Of a stretch of DNA of 63,401 nt, positions 10,430-55,069 are shown piece by piece. The position numbers and the translations under genes are program-made. The stretch is from a virus. Each line of letters starts with the position of its first letter. Position 1 is the stretch's first letter. Location: IMG/VR virus record IMGVR_UViG_3300042541_000733, positions 1 to 63,401 of that record, one strand, 5' to 3'. Under the pieces are notes generated by a model, which worked only from the letters and a program-made list of their open reading frames with translations, was not told where the DNA came from and searched no databases.

Positions 10430-11482
10430 ATGAGTAATATGTTTAACTCCCTACTAAAGGAGATTGATAATGAATACGCAGGAATCGCAGACGAAGGCGT
10501 GGAAGCTGGTGATGTTACTGGGTTCATTGGTACCGGCAGCTATAGTCTCAATGCTTTGCTTTCTGGTAGTATTTACGGCGGCCTTCCTGCTAACAAGGTT
10601 ACCGCGCTTGCAGGTGAACCTTCAACCGGAAAGACCTTTTATGCGATTAACATCGTCCGACAATTCCTCAGAGACAACGAAACAGGATTCGTCTTCTACT
10701 TCGAATCCGAATCCGCAATATCTAAGCAAATGCTGGCAGATAGAGAGATTGACACAAAGCGAGTTGCTGTTGTGCCGGTCGCAACTATCCAAGAGTTCCG
10801 CACTCAAGCCGTAAAGATCCTCGACAAGTATATTGAAAGTAAGAATGAAAAGGATCGTCCTCAGATGCTCTTTGTTCTTGACTCACTTGGCAATCTTTCT
10901 ACTACGAAAGAGATGGAAGATATTGCTGATGGTAAAGACACGCGCGATATGACACGCGCACAGCTTGTTCGTGGTGCTTTCCGTGTTCTCACTCTAAAGC
11001 TTGGCAAGGCCAAAGTTCCTCTCATCGTGACAAATCACGTTTATGATGTTGTTGGTGCTTATGTCCCAACTAAGAAGATGGGTGGTGGTTCTGGTCTTGA
11101 ATATGCTGCGTCTACTATTCTCTTCCTGTCCAAGAAGAAGGACAAAGACAAGTCCGATAACTCCATTACTGGTGCTATCATCACCGCAAATCTCAAGAAG
11201 GCGCGTTTGACAATCGAGAATAAGAAGGTCGAAACTCTCCTTGACTATGCAACTGGTCTTGATCCATACTATGGTCTTCTTGACCTCGCAGAGAAGTTTG
11301 GTATCTTCAAGAAGGTAACAACCCGTTACGAACTTCCTGATGGAACTAAAGCATTCGAATCAGCAATCGAAAAGAATCCTGAGAAGTATTTCACTAAGGA
11401 TATTCTCGACCAGATTGACGAAAAGTGTAAGGATGAGTTCCTCTATGGCAAGTCTAATGTTGCAGCAGTGGAGGAAGAATAA
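10430..11482 (+). CDS. uvsX: UvsX RecA-like recombinase
   Basis: 350 residues. Walker A 'AGEPSTGKT' at about 65-73, Walker B '[11 protein letters not shown]', and the RecA-core motif '[20 protein letters not shown]' (loop L2 region). Catalyses homologous pairing for recombination-dependent replication and repair. RBS GGAGAATC. Its stop overlaps the next start (TAATG). Confidence 0.93.
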
Positions 11483-30829: not shown

Positions 30830-33571
30830 ATGAAAATTAAATCAAAAACGGTACCACAGAAGGTACCTGGTGTAGCGTTCTACGGCAAAGCCCGTATTCC
30901 TCAACGAGGACACAGAACAGCAGTCGATCAGGGCAAGCAACTTGCCCAAAAAGTAGGCGGTAAGCTGACCGTCGGACTGTCAGGTGCAGCAGAACCCCTA
31001 GATATTCTCACAAAGAAAGCACTAGCTGAGAAGCTATTTAATCATCCAGTTCATGTTGGAACACCAGAAACACGAAGCCTTCATCATTTCTTAACACACA
31101 TGAATCAACATCATGATGATCTTCATCTGATAGCAGGTTCTGATCGTGTGCCAGAATACCAAGAATATCTGAAAAAATATAATGGTAGACCTAATAAAAA
31201 AGGTCAAATAGATTTCAACTTCAAAAGTTGGAAAGTTCATACTGCTGGTGGTAATCGCACAGAAAGTAATAAAGATCCTCGCGACATGTCTGAGGATGAA
31301 CTGACATCCACTGTGTCGGCATCTAAGCTTGAAAAATTGGCCAAAGAAGGCAATTGGGAACACTTTAAAGCATATCACGCAGGAGTACCTACTGCACATG
31401 TTCGCAAAGTATACTCTCAAATTCGAAAGTTTCATAGCATTAATGAAGCTGCTACCATTAGAGAAGAAATCACACGCAAAGAACTAGCACCAATGCTGGA
31501 CTCATTCGTAAGCTTTGCATCTAAAAAATTAGGCATCAAATCGCTTCCATCTGTTCGTCATAAAGATGAAAACGACGATTACAATTCATTTGCCGCATAC
31601 AATCCCTCAAAGAATGAACTTTCTATTTCAACGAAGAGCCGTCATCCAATGGATGTGTTTCGTTCGATAGCACATGAGCTTGTGCATCATAAGCAGAATG
31701 AAGAAGGTCGTATTGGCAAAGATATCGCTAAAGAAGGCGATACAGGTTCTGATATTGAGAATGAAGCAAACGCAGAAGCTGGTAAAGTAATGCGTTGGTT
31801 TGCAAAAGAGAACCCACATATGTTTTCCAAAGATCACATTATTGAGGAAACAATCTCTGAAGGAATCAATGATCCAGGTAAGATGAAAGCTATATTCTTA
31901 GCTGGTGGTCCTGGTTCTGGTAAAGATTATGTAATGAACTCTGTTCTTCAGGGTGAAGGATTGCGTGAAGTTAATTCTGACGTTGCTTTTGAATTTCTAA
32001 TGCAGAAGAATGGTCTTGATCTTGAAATGCCAGAAAATGAAAGAGTTGAGCGTGAGGTAATTCGTAAAAAAGCCAAGAAGACTACACGTAAGCGCGAGAC
32101 TGAATATCTAAGAGGCCGTTTAGGTGTTATCATCAATGGCACTGCTGATGATATTGAAAAAATTAAACTCATCAAACAAAGACTTGAATATGGTGGCTAC
32201 GAAACAATGATGGTGTTTGTCAATACATCCAATGATGTATCCAGACAACGCAATGTTGAGCGTGGTAAGATGGGCAAGCGTAAAGTTCCTGATGGCACTG
32301 ACAAGCAAGGAATAGCCGATAACTCACCAGACATTCGTACAGAAAAGTGGAAAGCTGCTCAAGAAAATATTGGTGAACTGCAAAAGATTTTTGGCAATCA
32401 AAAATTTGCTGTCATCGACAATACTGTAGATACCCGTAATGCTTTACCTGACGAGAAGTTAAAAGTACAAGCTGATTTTGATCGCGTTCGTCGTATGGCA
32501 CAACAGTTTGTTCGTGCTGATAACAAGAATCCGCGTTCTCAAAAGTGGATCGAACAAGAAGCAGAGCGCCGTGGTATCACTCAATATCAGGCACCAAAAA
32601 GCTTTAAGACGCTAACACAAATTCGTCAAGATATTACACCAATGCCAAAACATATGCCAGATAACGAAGTAATGGTACAAGCAAGACGGTTAGGTCTTTC
32701 GTACTATGGTTTCGGTAGATTTGGTCGCAAAGTTAACGGTAAGAATCATGTTCTATACCATAGTCAAGGAAATAATCTCGTGAGAGTAATGAATGAAGAT
32801 AAAGATCCATACTGCATACCTGTGAACGAGAAGTTCGAAGAGTTTATGAAAGAAGCAAAAGGCAATAAACCTTCTGAACGTGAAGAAGGTACAAAATCGC
32901 TTGTCAAAGTGTATGCTCAAGAAATACCAGGTCAAGAGATCATTGCAAAAGATGGTGTTGGTCCTGAAATTTCAACATCACAAATACCAACAAGAATTGG
33001 AAGTAGTGTAACAGTTTCAGAAAGCATTCATAGCTGGATGAATTCGAATGCCACACAAATTAAATTTCAAACCAAATATGGAAATGTATGGGAAGAAAAG
33101 CTTGTAGAAGCTGCTCTTCGTTTAGAAAAAGCTGGTTGTGGCTGTGATCACAAAGATATGCCAAAAAGCATTAAGAAGCTTATGGAACGTCATATGACAC
33201 CAGAAGAAATGAAAAAGCGTGAAGAGATTGCAAAAGCTATTCATCGTGATAATCCAGAAATGCCTATGTCTAAGAAGATGCGAATTGCTACTGCTCAAGC
33301 TATGAAAGAAGATTGGAAAAAAGTCAATCAACAAGATAACACAGATGGCATGAGTAAAGCTGCGGTTAAAGCATATCGTCGTGAAAATCCTGGATCAAAG
33401 TTATCAACAGCAGTGACAGAACCTAATCCAACTGGCAAGAGAAAAAATAGACAACATTCATTTTGTGCAAGAATGGGCGGTATGCCCGGTCCTATGAAAG
33501 ATAAAAACGGAGAAGATACTCCTAAGGCAGCCTCTCTTAAGAGATGGAATTGCAGACGCAAAAGAAAATAA
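30830..33571 (+). CDS. 913-aa fusion: nucleotidyltransferase, HExxH zincin, P-loop kinase, C-terminal basic domain
   Basis: Residues ~10-200 form an NMNAT-like nucleotidyltransferase ('GVAFYGKARIPQRGHRTAV', QxGH replacing HxGH; 'TVSASKLEKLAKEGNWEHF' replacing ISSTxxR). Residues ~215-325 hold 'IAHELVHHKQNEEG', a zincin site with Glu-rich 'DIENEANAEAGKVM'. 'AIFLAGGPGSGKDYV' (~354-368) is a Walker A kinase with 'LEYGGYETMMVFVNTS'. The last ~120 residues are Lys/Arg-rich with Cys pairs. It also carries 'AKDGVGPE', a motif shared with the next two products. Role: end-healing, NAD salvage, or a processed polyprotein. Confidence 0.75.
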   Translation: MKIKSKTVPQKVPGVAFYGKARIPQRGHRTAVDQGKQLAQKVGGKLTVGLSGAAEPLDILTKKALAEKLFNHPVHVGTPETRSLHHFLTHMNQHHDDLHLIAGSDRVPEYQEYLKKYNGRPNKKGQIDFNFKSWKVHTAGGNRTESNKDPRDMSEDELTSTVSASKLEKLAKEGNWEHFKAYHAGVPTAHVRKVYSQIRKFHSINEAATIREEITRKELAPMLDSFVSFASKKLGIKSLPSVRHKDENDDYNSFAAYNPSKNELSISTKSRHPMDVFRSIAHELVHHKQNEEGRIGKDIAKEGDTGSDIENEANAEAGKVMRWFAKENPHMFSKDHIIEETISEGINDPGKMKAIFLAGGPGSGKDYVMNSVLQGEGLREVNSDVAFEFLMQKNGLDLEMPENERVEREVIRKKAKKTTRKRETEYLRGRLGVIINGTADDIEKIKLIKQRLEYGGYETMMVFVNTSNDVSRQRNVERGKMGKRKVPDGTDKQGIADNSPDIRTEKWKAAQENIGELQKIFGNQKFAVIDNTVDTRNALPDEKLKVQADFDRVRRMAQQFVRADNKNPRSQKWIEQEAERRGITQYQAPKSFKTLTQIRQDITPMPKHMPDNEVMVQARRLGLSYYGFGRFGRKVNGKNHVLYHSQGNNLVRVMNEDKDPYCIPVNEKFEEFMKEAKGNKPSEREEGTKSLVKVYAQEIPGQEIIAKDGVGPEISTSQIPTRIGSSVTVSESIHSWMNSNATQIKFQTKYGNVWEEKLVEAALRLEKAGCGCDHKDMPKSIKKLMERHMTPEEMKKREEIAKAIHRDNPEMPMSKKMRIATAQAMKEDWKKVNQQDNTDGMSKAAVKAYRRENPGSKLSTAVTEPNPTGKRKNRQHSFCARMGGMPGPMKDKNGEDTPKAASLKRWNCRRKRK

Positions 33572-45175: not shown

Positions 45176-47110
45176 ATGTCAGGCAGTAATATGTTACCGA
45201 CACTATATCAAGAGTTCATTTATAAGAGCCGCTATGCTAAGTGGTTATGGGATGAAAATCGTCGTGAAAACTGGGATGAAACAGTTGCTCGTTATTTCAA
45301 CTTCTTTGATGAACACATCAAGGAAAATACTGGATACACTGTTACCAAAGAAGAACGTAAGCAACTTGAAGATGCTGTATTGAACCTTGAAATCATGCCA
45401 TCTATGCGCTGCTTGATGACTGCTGGTGAAGCTCTCAAGCGCGAGAATGTTGCTGGTTACAATTGCTCTTATGTTGCTGTAGATAATCCTCGCTCATTCG
45501 ATGAAATTCTTTATGTTCTTATGAATGGCACTGGTGTTGGTTTCTCTGTTGAGTCTAAGTTTGTTGATCAACTGCCTATCGTATCGGATTCATTTCATGA
45601 TACTGAAACAAATATCGTAGTGGCAGACTCAAAGCTTGGTTGGGCAAAGTCTCTTAAGGAACTTATTCATCTTCTTTATGCTGGCCAAGTTCCTCGTTGG
45701 GATCTTTCTAAGGTTCGTCCCGCTGGCGCACCGCTCAAGACATTTGGTGGTCGTGCTTCTGGCCCAGCACCGCTTGAAGACCTATTTAAGTTTTGCGTAT
45801 CAACATTCAAAAAGGCTGCTGGTCGTCGTTTGACCACATTGGAGGCACATGATATCGTTTGTAAGATCGCTGAAATCGTGGTTGTTGGTGGTGTTCGTAG
45901 AAGTGCTCTCATTAGCCTTTCTGATTTGTCTGACGACCGTATGCGCGTTGCCAAGTCTGGTGACTGGTGGAAAGAAAATGTACAACGCGCTCTCGCTAAC
46001 AACTCATTTGTGGCTAAAGAGAAGCCTGATGTGGGCATCTTCATGCGTGAGTGGCTTTCCCTCTATGAGTCGCGCTCTGGCGAACGCGGCATATTCAGTA
46101 GAGCGGCGTCTAGGAAGCAGGCCGAAAAGTTTGGACGAAGAGATCCGGATCACGATTTCGGCACCAATCCATGTAGTGAAATCATTCTACGTTCCAGAGA
46201 ATTCTGTAATCTCACAGAGGTTGTCGTTAGAGGAGATGACACCCCAGAAAGTCTCAAACGAAAAGTCAAACTCGCAGCTATACTTGGTACATTCCAATCC
46301 ACACTTACCAACTTCAAATACTTGAGCAAGAAGTGGTCTGAGAATTGTGAAGAAGAGCGTTTGCTTGGCGTGTCACTGACTGGTATCATGGACAATGAGT
46401 ATACGAATGGTACTGGGGCTAAAGTAATACTTGATGGCGCACTCGAATCAATGTTGGAGGATCTACGCAATGAAGCAGTCAAAACTAACGCTACTTGGGC
46501 TGCGAAACTTGGTATTCCTGTATCTGCTGCTATTACTTGCGTCAAACCTTCTGGCACCGTATCTCAGTTGGTCGATTCGGCTAGTGGTATTCATGCTCGT
46601 CACAGTCCCTATTATATTCGTACTGTTCGCGCAGACAAGAAAGACCCACTAGCACTAATGATGAAGGACATGGGGTTCCCTTGTGAGGATGATGTGACGA
46701 AGCCTCAGCACACTTATGTCTTCTCATTCCCACAGAAGTCTCCTGATCATGCTGTGTTCCGTTCTGAGATTAGTGCAATCTCACAACTTGAAATGTGGTT
46801 GACTTATCAGCGTCATTGGTGTGAACATAAGCCATCTGTTACTGTGTCTGTTAAGGAAGAAGAATGGCCAGAAGTTGGTGCTTGGGTTTACAATCACTTT
46901 GATGAAATGTCTGGCGTATCATTCTTGCCATTCTCAGACCATGTCTACAAGCAGGCACCTTATCAAGATTGCACCAAGGAAGAATACGAAGCTCTTGCTG
47001 CTAAAATGCCTAAAGAAGTTGACTGGACAAAGTTAGCTACATATGAGAAGCAAGACGCAACAACCGGCTCACAAGAATTAGCGTGTGTAGCCGGTGGTTG
47101 TGAAATTTAA
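45176..47110 (+). CDS. nrdJ: Class II ribonucleotide reductase (adenosylcobalamin-dependent)
   Basis: 644 residues. 'AGYNCSYVAVDN' (redox Cys), 'NPCSEIILRSREFCNLTEVV' (thiyl Cys region), 'VKPSGTVSQLVDSASGIHAR', and the C-terminal 'CVAGGCEI' Cys pair of RTPR-type class II enzymes. Needs cobalamin from the host, which suits an alphaproteobacterial B12 user. No NrdB subunit is needed or found. Confidence 0.93.
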   Translation: MSGSNMLPTLYQEFIYKSRYAKWLWDENRRENWDETVARYFNFFDEHIKENTGYTVTKEERKQLEDAVLNLEIMPSMRCLMTAGEALKRENVAGYNCSYVAVDNPRSFDEILYVLMNGTGVGFSVESKFVDQLPIVSDSFHDTETNIVVADSKLGWAKSLKELIHLLYAGQVPRWDLSKVRPAGAPLKTFGGRASGPAPLEDLFKFCVSTFKKAAGRRLTTLEAHDIVCKIAEIVVVGGVRRSALISLSDLSDDRMRVAKSGDWWKENVQRALANNSFVAKEKPDVGIFMREWLSLYESRSGERGIFSRAASRKQAEKFGRRDPDHDFGTNPCSEIILRSREFCNLTEVVVRGDDTPESLKRKVKLAAILGTFQSTLTNFKYLSKKWSENCEEERLLGVSLTGIMDNEYTNGTGAKVILDGALESMLEDLRNEAVKTNATWAAKLGIPVSAAITCVKPSGTVSQLVDSASGIHARHSPYYIRTVRADKKDPLALMMKDMGFPCEDDVTKPQHTYVFSFPQKSPDHAVFRSEISAISQLEMWLTYQRHWCEHKPSVTVSVKEEEWPEVGAWVYNHFDEMSGVSFLPFSDHVYKQAPYQDCTKEEYEALAAKMPKEVDWTKLATYEKQDATTGSQELACVAGGCEI

Positions 47111-52466: not shown

Positions 52467-52653
52467 GTATGTAAGTGATTCGAATACTAAATATACTATA
52501 TACATGATGCCCAAACAGTCCGATTGGCAATGCACTCTTATCGGTGGTCCAAATGGTGCTGTTTATAATCCTACAGAGGGTAATGAGCCCAATTGGTTCC
52601 ATCGCAAGATGCAAGAACTTTGTTTTGGTTTTAAATGGAGAAAGATTAAGTGA
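52459..52653 (+). CDS. Hypothetical protein, 64 aa
   Basis: Start set at TTG 52459, with AGGA 9 nt upstream, giving an 8-nt overlap with the previous gene; earlier in-frame starts lie deep inside that gene. 'YTIYMMPKQSDWQCTLIGGP'. Function unknown. Confidence 0.5.
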   Translation: MNKYVSDSNTKYTIYMMPKQSDWQCTLIGGPNGAVYNPTEGNEPNWFHRKMQELCFGFKWRKIK

Positions 52654-53003
52654 AGAAGTTTCTGCTTACAATCTCAATGGTTGCATTGTTTGTTTCTCCT
52701 GCAATTGCGGGCAACAAGAATAATGTTAACCAGTTTGAAAACTGGCAGCACAACCAAGAGCAAACTTACAATTATAATTACAACTATAATTACAAGTACA
52801 AGAACAACAACGGCGATTGGTATGAGAACCCAAATGTTTGGGCGCCAATCGTTGGAGGTCTTCTCGGCGGTCTTGTAGAGCGTTCGGCACCTCCTCAACA
52901 ATACTATGAGTATGAGTACCCACCTTGTCGGGCAGTTATCATGCCTGTATTCGTCCCCAGTTTAGGAGTTTATCGTAAGATGCCAGTACAGGTGTGCGAC
53001 TAA
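52650..53003 (+). CDS. Secreted Asn/Tyr-rich protein, 117 aa
   Basis: GTG start. Signal peptide 'KKFLLTISMVALFVSPAIAG', then a Tyr-Asn repeat, a glycine-zipper-like 'PIVGGLLGGLVE', and two Cys in the C-terminal part ('PPCRAVIMP', 'VQVCD'). Probably periplasmic or outer-membrane associated; possible superinfection or envelope role is a guess. Confidence 0.7.
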   Translation: MKKFLLTISMVALFVSPAIAGNKNNVNQFENWQHNQEQTYNYNYNYNYKYKNNNGDWYENPNVWAPIVGGLLGGLVERSAPPQQYYEYEYPPCRAVIMPVFVPSLGVYRKMPVQVCD

Positions 53004-53372: not shown

Positions 53373-53633
53373 ATGAGCAAGAGTCGAGCCGAAAGAAGAC
53401 ACCATCATCAGCGTATGTTAGATCGTGTTAAGTCTTTTCACTGGTTGAAAAAGAAGTTTTGGAACGGCACTGACGAAGATCGAGAGTTACATTACAAGAA
53501 GATGGCAGAAACACGACAAAAGTGTTCATGTCATATGTGTGGGAATCCACGAAAGTATTGGAAAGAAGAAACTATGCAAGAGAAGCGCGTAAAGGAAAAT
53601 GAAAAGTTTGATGAGGATGAAAATGTCTTCTGA
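53373..53633 (+). CDS. Conserved phage protein with C-x-C-x2-C, 86 aa
   Basis: 'ERRHHHQRMLDRVKSFHWLK' and 'CSCHMCGNPRKYWKEET': a common phage protein with a possible metal site (CxCxxC plus His). Function unknown. Confidence 0.85.
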   Translation: MSKSRAERRHHHQRMLDRVKSFHWLKKKFWNGTDEDRELHYKKMAETRQKCSCHMCGNPRKYWKEETMQEKRVKENEKFDEDENVF

Positions 53634-53949
53634 TAACGGAATCTACATTCTTTCCACACGAGGTCCCGAATACAGGGTCGCGCATCATCAAAACATCGAA
53701 GAGATATATGGAACTTTTAATGATGATACATATACATGGAATGGTGATGAACAGGAGATGTGGAATTATTTCCATAATGCCCGAATGTTTACCAATCTCG
53801 AACAAGCCCTTGACTATGCCGAATTGATCAGCTATAATTATGAATATCTTGAGTATGGAATTTGTGTAATTTCCGATTTTACCAAGATTGACTTTGAAAG
53901 GCTGAAGGAAAAATATGGCAAAGAAGAAGCAGAAGACGATTCGCGGTAA
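53623..53949 (+). CDS. Conserved phage protein, 108 aa
   Basis: ATG 53623 with GAGG. 'GIYILSTRGPEYRVAHHQNI' and 'NYFHNARMFTNLEQALDYAE' recur in phages. Overlaps the 11-nt end of the previous gene and the next start by 35 nt. Function unknown. Confidence 0.8.
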   Translation: MSSDNGIYILSTRGPEYRVAHHQNIEEIYGTFNDDTYTWNGDEQEMWNYFHNARMFTNLEQALDYAELISYNYEYLEYGICVISDFTKIDFERLKEKYGKEEAEDDSR

Positions 53950-55069
53950 GTTTGCGGACGAAAAGTATCTTGGTCAAGAACCAGATCTTCGTGGCGAAGT
54001 TACAAATGCTCAGATCATTTCAGCTTACAACTGGTACAATTATTTTTATGATGGTGACCAAGCTAAGGTTTGGATCGTTGAATACCTGAAAGAGTTTTAT
54101 AAAACAGAAAAGGAACTTATCAAAAATGTCAACAGAATTAATTCTAATCTTTGCCGCACTAGCGGTTGGAATTGTCGTATATTACTATTGGGCGGCAACC
54201 TCCCACAAGACCTCCAAGATCGAAACATTGCCCGAATCAAAGCCCTTGCCGCCGGTGCAGCCAATGCCAGCACCGACTCCAGTTCCAGTAGCGGAGAAGG
54301 CATCAGCAAAGAAGAAGACGGCATCGAAAAAGAAGTCAAGCAAGTAATTTCAGTTCAGGAGCGTGTGACTAATCGCGCTAATGATTTGATTGCTGATATC
54401 GAAGGTCACTTGGACAATTTCTATCGCAATGGTACTATGTTCAAGCCCGTAGATTGGCTCTCTGCACAAGATGTTAAGCCGATGATCGCTCAGAAGATCG
54501 CGGATTATTATAAGCCTCTTTATGCTGAAATCTTTGATGCCCTTAACGGCAAGAACGATCAGCTTAGAGAGGCTTATTCTTCTTGGAAGAAGCCGAAGCT
54601 GAAAGCTTACATGGAATTTGTTAGGTCTATCATTTCGGCTGCTGAAACTCGCACAACTATTGTTAAGGCAACTCGCAAGCCTCGTAAGAAGAAAGAGAAG
54701 CCTGCATCAGCTCTCGTATCGAAACTCAAGTATAAGGTAAAAGATGAAACACTCAAGTTGGACTCAGTCGATCCGAAACAGATCATCGGATGCAATCAAC
54801 TCTGGATCTTCAATACTAAATATCGAACCCTTGGTGTCTATAATGCTATGGGTCCTGCTGGTTTGTCTGTCAAAGGCAGCACTCTTGTAGGCTTTGATGA
54901 AAAGACCTCTCAGATCAAGACGCTGCGTAAGCCTGCCGAACAACTTAAGAAGTTGCAAGAGGGTGGCAAGATTGTTCTGAGAAAGTTTATGGACGAAATC
55001 AAATGTAAGCCCAAGACTGCAACTGGTCGCATAAATAATGAGACAGTTCTAGTAAGGATCATCAAATAA
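53915..55069 (+). CDS. Conserved T4-like phage protein, 384 aa
   Basis: 'AYNWYNYFYDGDQAKVWIVE' and 'WNCRILLLGGNLPQDLQDRN' in the first third, then a Ser/Ala-rich patch (~115-135) that coincides with an overlapping frame, then 'KLKAYMEFVRSIISAAETRT', a Lys-rich linker and a beta-rich C-terminal domain ('WIFNTKYRTLGVYNAMGPAG'). Known as an uncharacterised protein in this phage group. Confidence 0.8.
   Translation: MAKKKQKTIRGKFADEKYLGQEPDLRGEVTNAQIISAYNWYNYFYDGDQAKVWIVEYLKEFYKTEKELIKNVNRINSNLCRTSGWNCRILLLGGNLPQDLQDRNIARIKALAAGAANASTDSSSSSGEGISKEEDGIEKEVKQVISVQERVTNRANDLIADIEGHLDNFYRNGTMFKPVDWLSAQDVKPMIAQKIADYYKPLYAEIFDALNGKNDQLREAYSSWKKPKLKAYMEFVRSIISAAETRTTIVKATRKPRKKKEKPASALVSKLKYKVKDETLKLDSVDPKQIIGCNQLWIFNTKYRTLGVYNAMGPAGLSVKGSTLVGFDEKTSQIKTLRKPAEQLKKLQEGGKIVLRKFMDEIKCKPKTATGRINNETVLVRIIK
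54126..54347 (+). CDS. Nested membrane protein in another frame, 73 aa
   Basis: ATG 54126, AAGGA about 12 nt upstream, entirely inside the 384-aa gene in a different frame. MSTELILIFAALAVGIVVYY is a membrane span; the rest is Pro-rich then Lys-rich ('APTPVPVAEKASAKKKTASK'). The sequence looks like a designed small membrane protein rather than random translation. Confidence 0.5.
   Translation: MSTELILIFAALAVGIVVYYYWAATSHKTSKIETLPESKPLPPVQPMPAPTPVPVAEKASAKKKTASKKKSSK

Follow-up and report, generated by a model that had tools for sequence, protein, structure and literature searches.

Does one stretch of 222 bases in a viral genome encode two proteins in different frames? The question was raised by a 384-aa gene in the 63,401-nucleotide sequence IMGVR_UViG_3300042541_000733, the whole of which was analysed and is here called the window (position 1 being its first letter). 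According to the original prediction, a small membrane protein (membrane span, Pro-rich part, Lys-rich tail) is encoded in another frame of this gene, and an open reading frame answering this description (ORF1) lies entirely within the larger gene, hereafter the host gene. From comparison with relatives, we consider it very probable (about nine chances in ten) that the overlap encodes two proteins, that is, dual coding by overprinting. The features concerned are the following, all on the + strand.

53915–55069, +: host gene, 384 aa; matches PHROG 11903 (E 7.7e-79); AF2 model with mean pLDDT 82.5
54110–54114, +: AAGGA, Shine-Dalgarno-like motif 11 nt before the ORF1 ATG; AAGGA in 30/30 non-redundant clade sequences
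54126–54347, +: nested ORF1, 73 aa, in the +1 frame of the host gene; predicted membrane protein with one helix, a linker rich in Pro and a tail rich in Lys; found in 53/53 covered clade loci; synonymous observed/expected 0.49
54135–54194, +: predicted ORF1 membrane segment (residues 4–23), overprinting the conserved host motif GWNCRIL; AF2 helix at residues 2–31; the same +1 stretch is often hydrophobic in nearer outgroups
54228–54299, +: ORF1 Pro-rich linker; 9 Pro against 2.3 expected under synonymous recoding of the host, with 0/1000 draws reaching 9
54275–54352, +: disordered linker of the host protein (residues 121–146), holding the final part of the nested gene; pLDDT <50 at residues 122–141; expanded in the clade, short in outgroups
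54297–54344, +: ORF1 Lys-rich tail; kept in the clade; its charge mirrors the Lys/Glu-rich host frame
54345–54347, +: ORF1 stop TAA, supplied by GTA-ATT, which reads Val-Ile in the host frame; position shared by every member without ORF2 (see below) except L093

Genomic setting and the expectation from chance

The host protein matches PHROG 11903 over its full length, a family with no function assigned in PHROG and with relatives in phages of Ochrobactrum, Rhizobium, Sinorhizobium and others. A scan of bacterial and archaeal genomes found no copy of the host gene, and a fold search with the host model returned no PDB relative, only uncharacterised viral homologues being matched. A T4-type RNase H gene lies downstream with one gene in between, and the window also encodes a T4-type DNA polymerase, UvsX, a replicative helicase, ribonucleotide reductase (RNR) and PhoH. 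The DNA polymerase is approximately 50% identical to those of cyanophages, and the phage is, judged from these sequences, T4-like and a member of an uncultured group. Other features of the window include a 116-aa ORF at 53599–53949 that overlaps the start of the host gene by 35 bases, a small protein at 52650–53003 with a signal-peptide-like start, a Tyr/Asn repeat (YNYNYNYNYKYK) and no significant PHROG match, and a 913-aa protein at 30830–33571 with PHROG matches to a cytidyltransferase-like part alongside ATPase-like and unassigned parts.

The length of ORF1 alone is at chance level, with six nested ATG-initiated ORFs of at least 73 aa observed in the window and 5.6 expected when all window genes were synonymously recoded, and observation of this single sequence would not justify a claim of dual coding. 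The hydrophobicity and the basic tail of the product also follow largely from host residues read in the +1 frame; only its Pro content lies far above the recoding null, as it does in nearly all clade members. ORF1 is considered more than a chance frame because it is conserved and constrained in relatives. As to its initiation, the ATG is invariant in 30/30 non-redundant members, the AAGGA motif stands at a longish spacing (11 nt), and a +1-frame stop occurs one or two codons upstream of the ATG in 27/30 members; this motif and the nearness of the stop to the ATG point to translation probably beginning at ORF1's own ATG, not by frameshift.

Conservation and constraint among relatives

Relatives of the host gene were collected by scans of viral contigs. 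The original prediction had been staked on the nested frame being free of stops in close relatives, and ORF1 was intact at the same place and in the same frame in 53/53 clade loci whose sequence covers the region (L001–L042, L046, L049, L053–L058, L062, L076 and L093), with lengths of 63 to 87 aa that differ by whole codons. The N-terminus nearly always reads M(S/P/Q)(T/I)EL, a hydrophobic stretch comes next, and the C-terminal end is Lys-rich; exceptions are L040 and L093, which start differently, and L039, which lacks the Pro-rich part, while in L049 the host frame is shifted beyond the overlap (possibly a sequencing error) and ORF1 is intact. The 30 non-redundant carriers form one clade, with modest support (UFboot 74), and deeper relatives of the host gene lack ORF1. 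PHROG and Pfam matches of the ORF1 protein were weak and a tblastn search of a cultured-phage collection gave no match to it; by these searches, ORF1 occurs only in a clade of uncultured phages. The alignment of the nested proteins offered no segment sufficiently conserved to scan with. ORF1 would thus date at least from the common ancestor of the clade, within which identity between host proteins falls as low as about 60%. The original prediction had spoken of dual coding or recent overprinting; overprinting is upheld, and ‘recent’ would be apt only relative to the deep gene family. Outside the clade, L043 carries from about position 2150 a different hydrophobic ORF of 68 aa in the same +1 frame and without the expanded linker; it was not accepted as an ORF1 member and was treated as chance or latent.

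Two longer nested ORFs of the window served for comparison, the frame of the UvsX-nested ORF being open in 33/60 relatives (synonymous observed/expected 0.95) and that of the RNR-nested ORF in 28/55 (0.87); the ORF1 overlap gave 0.59 in the cruder pipeline used for these two. Both are in the +1 frame: the UvsX-nested ORF (114 aa, window 10470–10814) has a hydrophobic stretch and its ATG is kept in 51/60 relatives, and the ATG of the RNR-nested ORF (158 aa, window 45849–46325) is kept in 42/55.

The synonymous-site analysis proposed with the original prediction, performed on the 30 non-redundant clade members, revealed strong suppression of host-frame synonymous change over the ORF1 overlap (observed/expected 0.49, Z -9.1, Z values assuming independent sites). 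Taken separately, the membrane half gave a ratio of 0.68 and the Pro/Lys half one of 0.36; random deeper pairs gave 0.63–0.74 over the overlap, and at the same place in outgroups without ORF1 the ratio was 1.10, no suppression being present there. In a simplified OLGenie-type count (method idea PMC7531306), the ratio SN/SS, in which the numerator counts changes silent in the host frame and altering the nested one, was 0.44 in the overlap versus 0.96 outside, with few SS sites (23). Host dNN/dSN in the overlap was 0.60 with the nested alignment and 0.62 with the host alignment, versus 0.16 outside, so that the host protein is relaxed here, and the most variable codon position in the linker is host position 1 (nested position 3). 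The dNN/dNS ratio of ORF1 itself hardly differed from the control (0.64 versus 0.69), and the case for ORF1 therefore rests on the host-synonymous sites. A weaker synonymous dip (0.65–0.70), also absent in outgroups, was seen at about host codons 289–333 (window 54779–54913), under which no conserved alternative ORF was found; such dips can thus have other causes.

The host linker and a second nested frame

Across the second half of ORF1 the host frame is a Ser/Ala/Glu-rich linker, and its codon use departs from that elsewhere: Ala GCC 80% versus 16%, Thr ACC 83% versus 18%, Ser TCC/AGC 72% versus 21%, Val GTC 85% versus 28% and Glu GAA 96% versus 70%. Host codons ending in CC or AA are those that yield Pro and Lys codons in the +1 frame, and the Ser/Ala-rich composition, which the original prediction had attributed to the overlap, is explained by it in this reading of the codon bias. 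The host model is disordered at residues 122–141, so the linker can tolerate a composition imposed in this way.

In the subclade L053–L058 the linker holds approximately 125 extra host residues, and a second nested ORF (ORF2) of 129–130 aa, also in the +1 frame, starts directly at the ORF1 stop (TAA-ATG) and ends at the host Val-Ile site. The example below is given in positions of its own locus.

L057, from about 1754 to 2143: ORF2, with a transmembrane (TM) segment, a coiled coil and a Pro- and Lys-rich end

Between L053 and L057, nested positions 1, 2 and 3 of ORF2 changed 14, 12 and 27 times, respectively, with a dNN/dNS of 0.34 and the host frame near neutral. Judged by these counts, selection in the ORF2 stretch clearly acts on the shifted frame, which provides the cleanest sign that this frame is protein-coding in the linker. 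ORF2 was not found outside the nested setting, and a tblastn search against cultured phages gave no match. The TAA-ATG junction would probably couple translation of ORF1 and ORF2, making them a nested gene pair.

Alternative readings, predicted role and origin

Dual coding would be set aside if the nested frame were untranslated, the host sequence being held by RNA structure, codon choice or constraint on the host protein, and the open ORF being a by-product. Consistent with this, the +1 frame stays open in about 23% of synonymous recodings of the host (median across members), the host gene shows a further synonymous dip that coincides with no ORF, and much of the hydrophobicity and charge of ORF1 derives from the host protein. 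We nevertheless regard it as very unlikely, given that the start and frame are kept in 30/30 members despite changing length and sequence, with Pro far above the recoding null, that the host protein is relaxed in the linker and nested position 3 is the most variable there, that in ORF2 the third nested position has about twice as many changes as either of the others, and that relatives without ORF1 lack the synonymous suppression. Programmed frameshifting from the host frame into +1, yielding a host–nested fusion, is less probable still: the A-rich stretch ATCAAAAATG immediately upstream of the nested ATG would suit it, but the upstream +1 stop leaves almost no room for a shift in 27/30 members and the ATG is invariant. 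Constraint imposed by an antisense ORF that covers these bases can be practically dismissed, for although one antisense frame is open across host codons 79–128 in 30/30 members, its ends and first Met differ among relatives and some copies have no Met.

With dual coding as the preferred reading, the ORF1 product is probably a small protein of the inner membrane whose flexible basic tail would lie in the cytoplasm. Its AF2 model consists of one helix (residues 2–31) followed by disorder, and the mean net charge is about -1 over residues 1–5, +0.9 over residues 23–37 and about +7 over the whole tail; the cytoplasmic location of the tail is proposed because the N-terminus is acidic and the tail-side end of the helix positive, following the positive-inside rule. 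A role as an inner-membrane anchor, acting in host takeover or at the time of replication, whose basic tail would bind a polyanion (such as DNA, RNA or acidic lipid), is put forward only tentatively.

The nested genes best known from phages act in lysis, and phiX174 E is read in the +1 frame and has an N-terminal TM segment and a basic C-terminal part. E, a small membrane protein, is encoded within gene D in a shifted frame, an arrangement interpreted as de novo overprinting of the older frame (PMC8227390), and lambda Rz1 (o-spanin) lies inside Rz (i-spanin), in its +1 frame, where the host segment over Rz1 is permissive (PMC6139136). These precedents favour the main functional rival to the membrane-anchor role, which involves the same dual coding and which we hold to be unlikely, namely that ORF1 is a lysis protein (a phiX174 E-like effector or a one-helix holin) with ORF2 i-spanin-like; ORF2 does contain a TM segment, a coiled coil and a Pro-rich part, and it has weak PHROG matches of the Rz type (E 0.047–0.4). 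Set against a role in lysis are the position of the gene close to that of RNase H, in a window with many replication genes, the absence of any lysis gene among the subset of window proteins scanned, the spanin matches, none of which is significant, and the absence of Cys, hence of a lipobox, from ORF1 in 27/30 members. ORF1 was accordingly rejected as an o-spanin (Rz1-like), the other three members having no conserved Cys position, and ORF2 as an i-spanin (Rz-like), its best Rz-like PHROG match not being significant (E 0.047) and its neighbour ORF1 having no lipobox. The likeness to E in D lies in the arrangement alone, a small membrane-protein gene inside another phage gene in a shifted frame, with no sequence relation claimed; phiX174 differs in being a small ssDNA phage whose E lyses, whereas here the host gene has an expanded disordered linker and a second nested gene in tandem. 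Rz1 is likewise a membrane-associated, Pro-rich protein encoded in a nested +1 frame, but it is a lipoprotein that works in lysis with the product of its own host gene, whereas ORF1 has no lipobox, its 384-aa host matches no spanin and the pair lies in a replication region.

Turning to the origin of ORF1 as an overprinted gene, most members show across its TM half a closer match to genome codon usage in the host frame than in the nested one, so the host frame is taken to be the older there. When read in +1, the host GWNCRIL region is often hydrophobic even in the nearer outgroups, with stops interrupting it in most of them. These observations agree with ORF1 having been overprinted on an older host gene, its membrane helix arising from a latent hydrophobic reading. 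We propose that the 384-aa gene was overprinted a single time, in the ancestor of a T4-like clade among environmental phages, where the latent hydrophobic +1 reading of the GWNCRIL helix region, together with an ATG, AAGGA and the expanded linker, would have become a complete small gene. Ribosomes would most likely initiate at the internal ATG of the same mRNA and produce a 63–87 aa protein whose single membrane helix is joined to a Lys-rich tail by a flexible spacer, usually rich in Pro; later, in one subclade, the linker would have gained the second +1 gene of 129–130 aa.

Overprinting is already known, and annotation pipelines skip such overlaps; what appear to be new are this nested family and the tandem nested pair. 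We lean somewhat towards the view that the disordered linker in this replication-region gene has been a nursery for new membrane genes, a second +1 gene being added later in tandem and the host frame becoming, across approximately 130 codons, a passive read-through of a stretch in which the shifted frame is selected. With dozens of relatives, an outgroup without ORF1, identifiable raw material and a later second gene, this family would allow the birth of a membrane gene by overprinting to be traced step by step.
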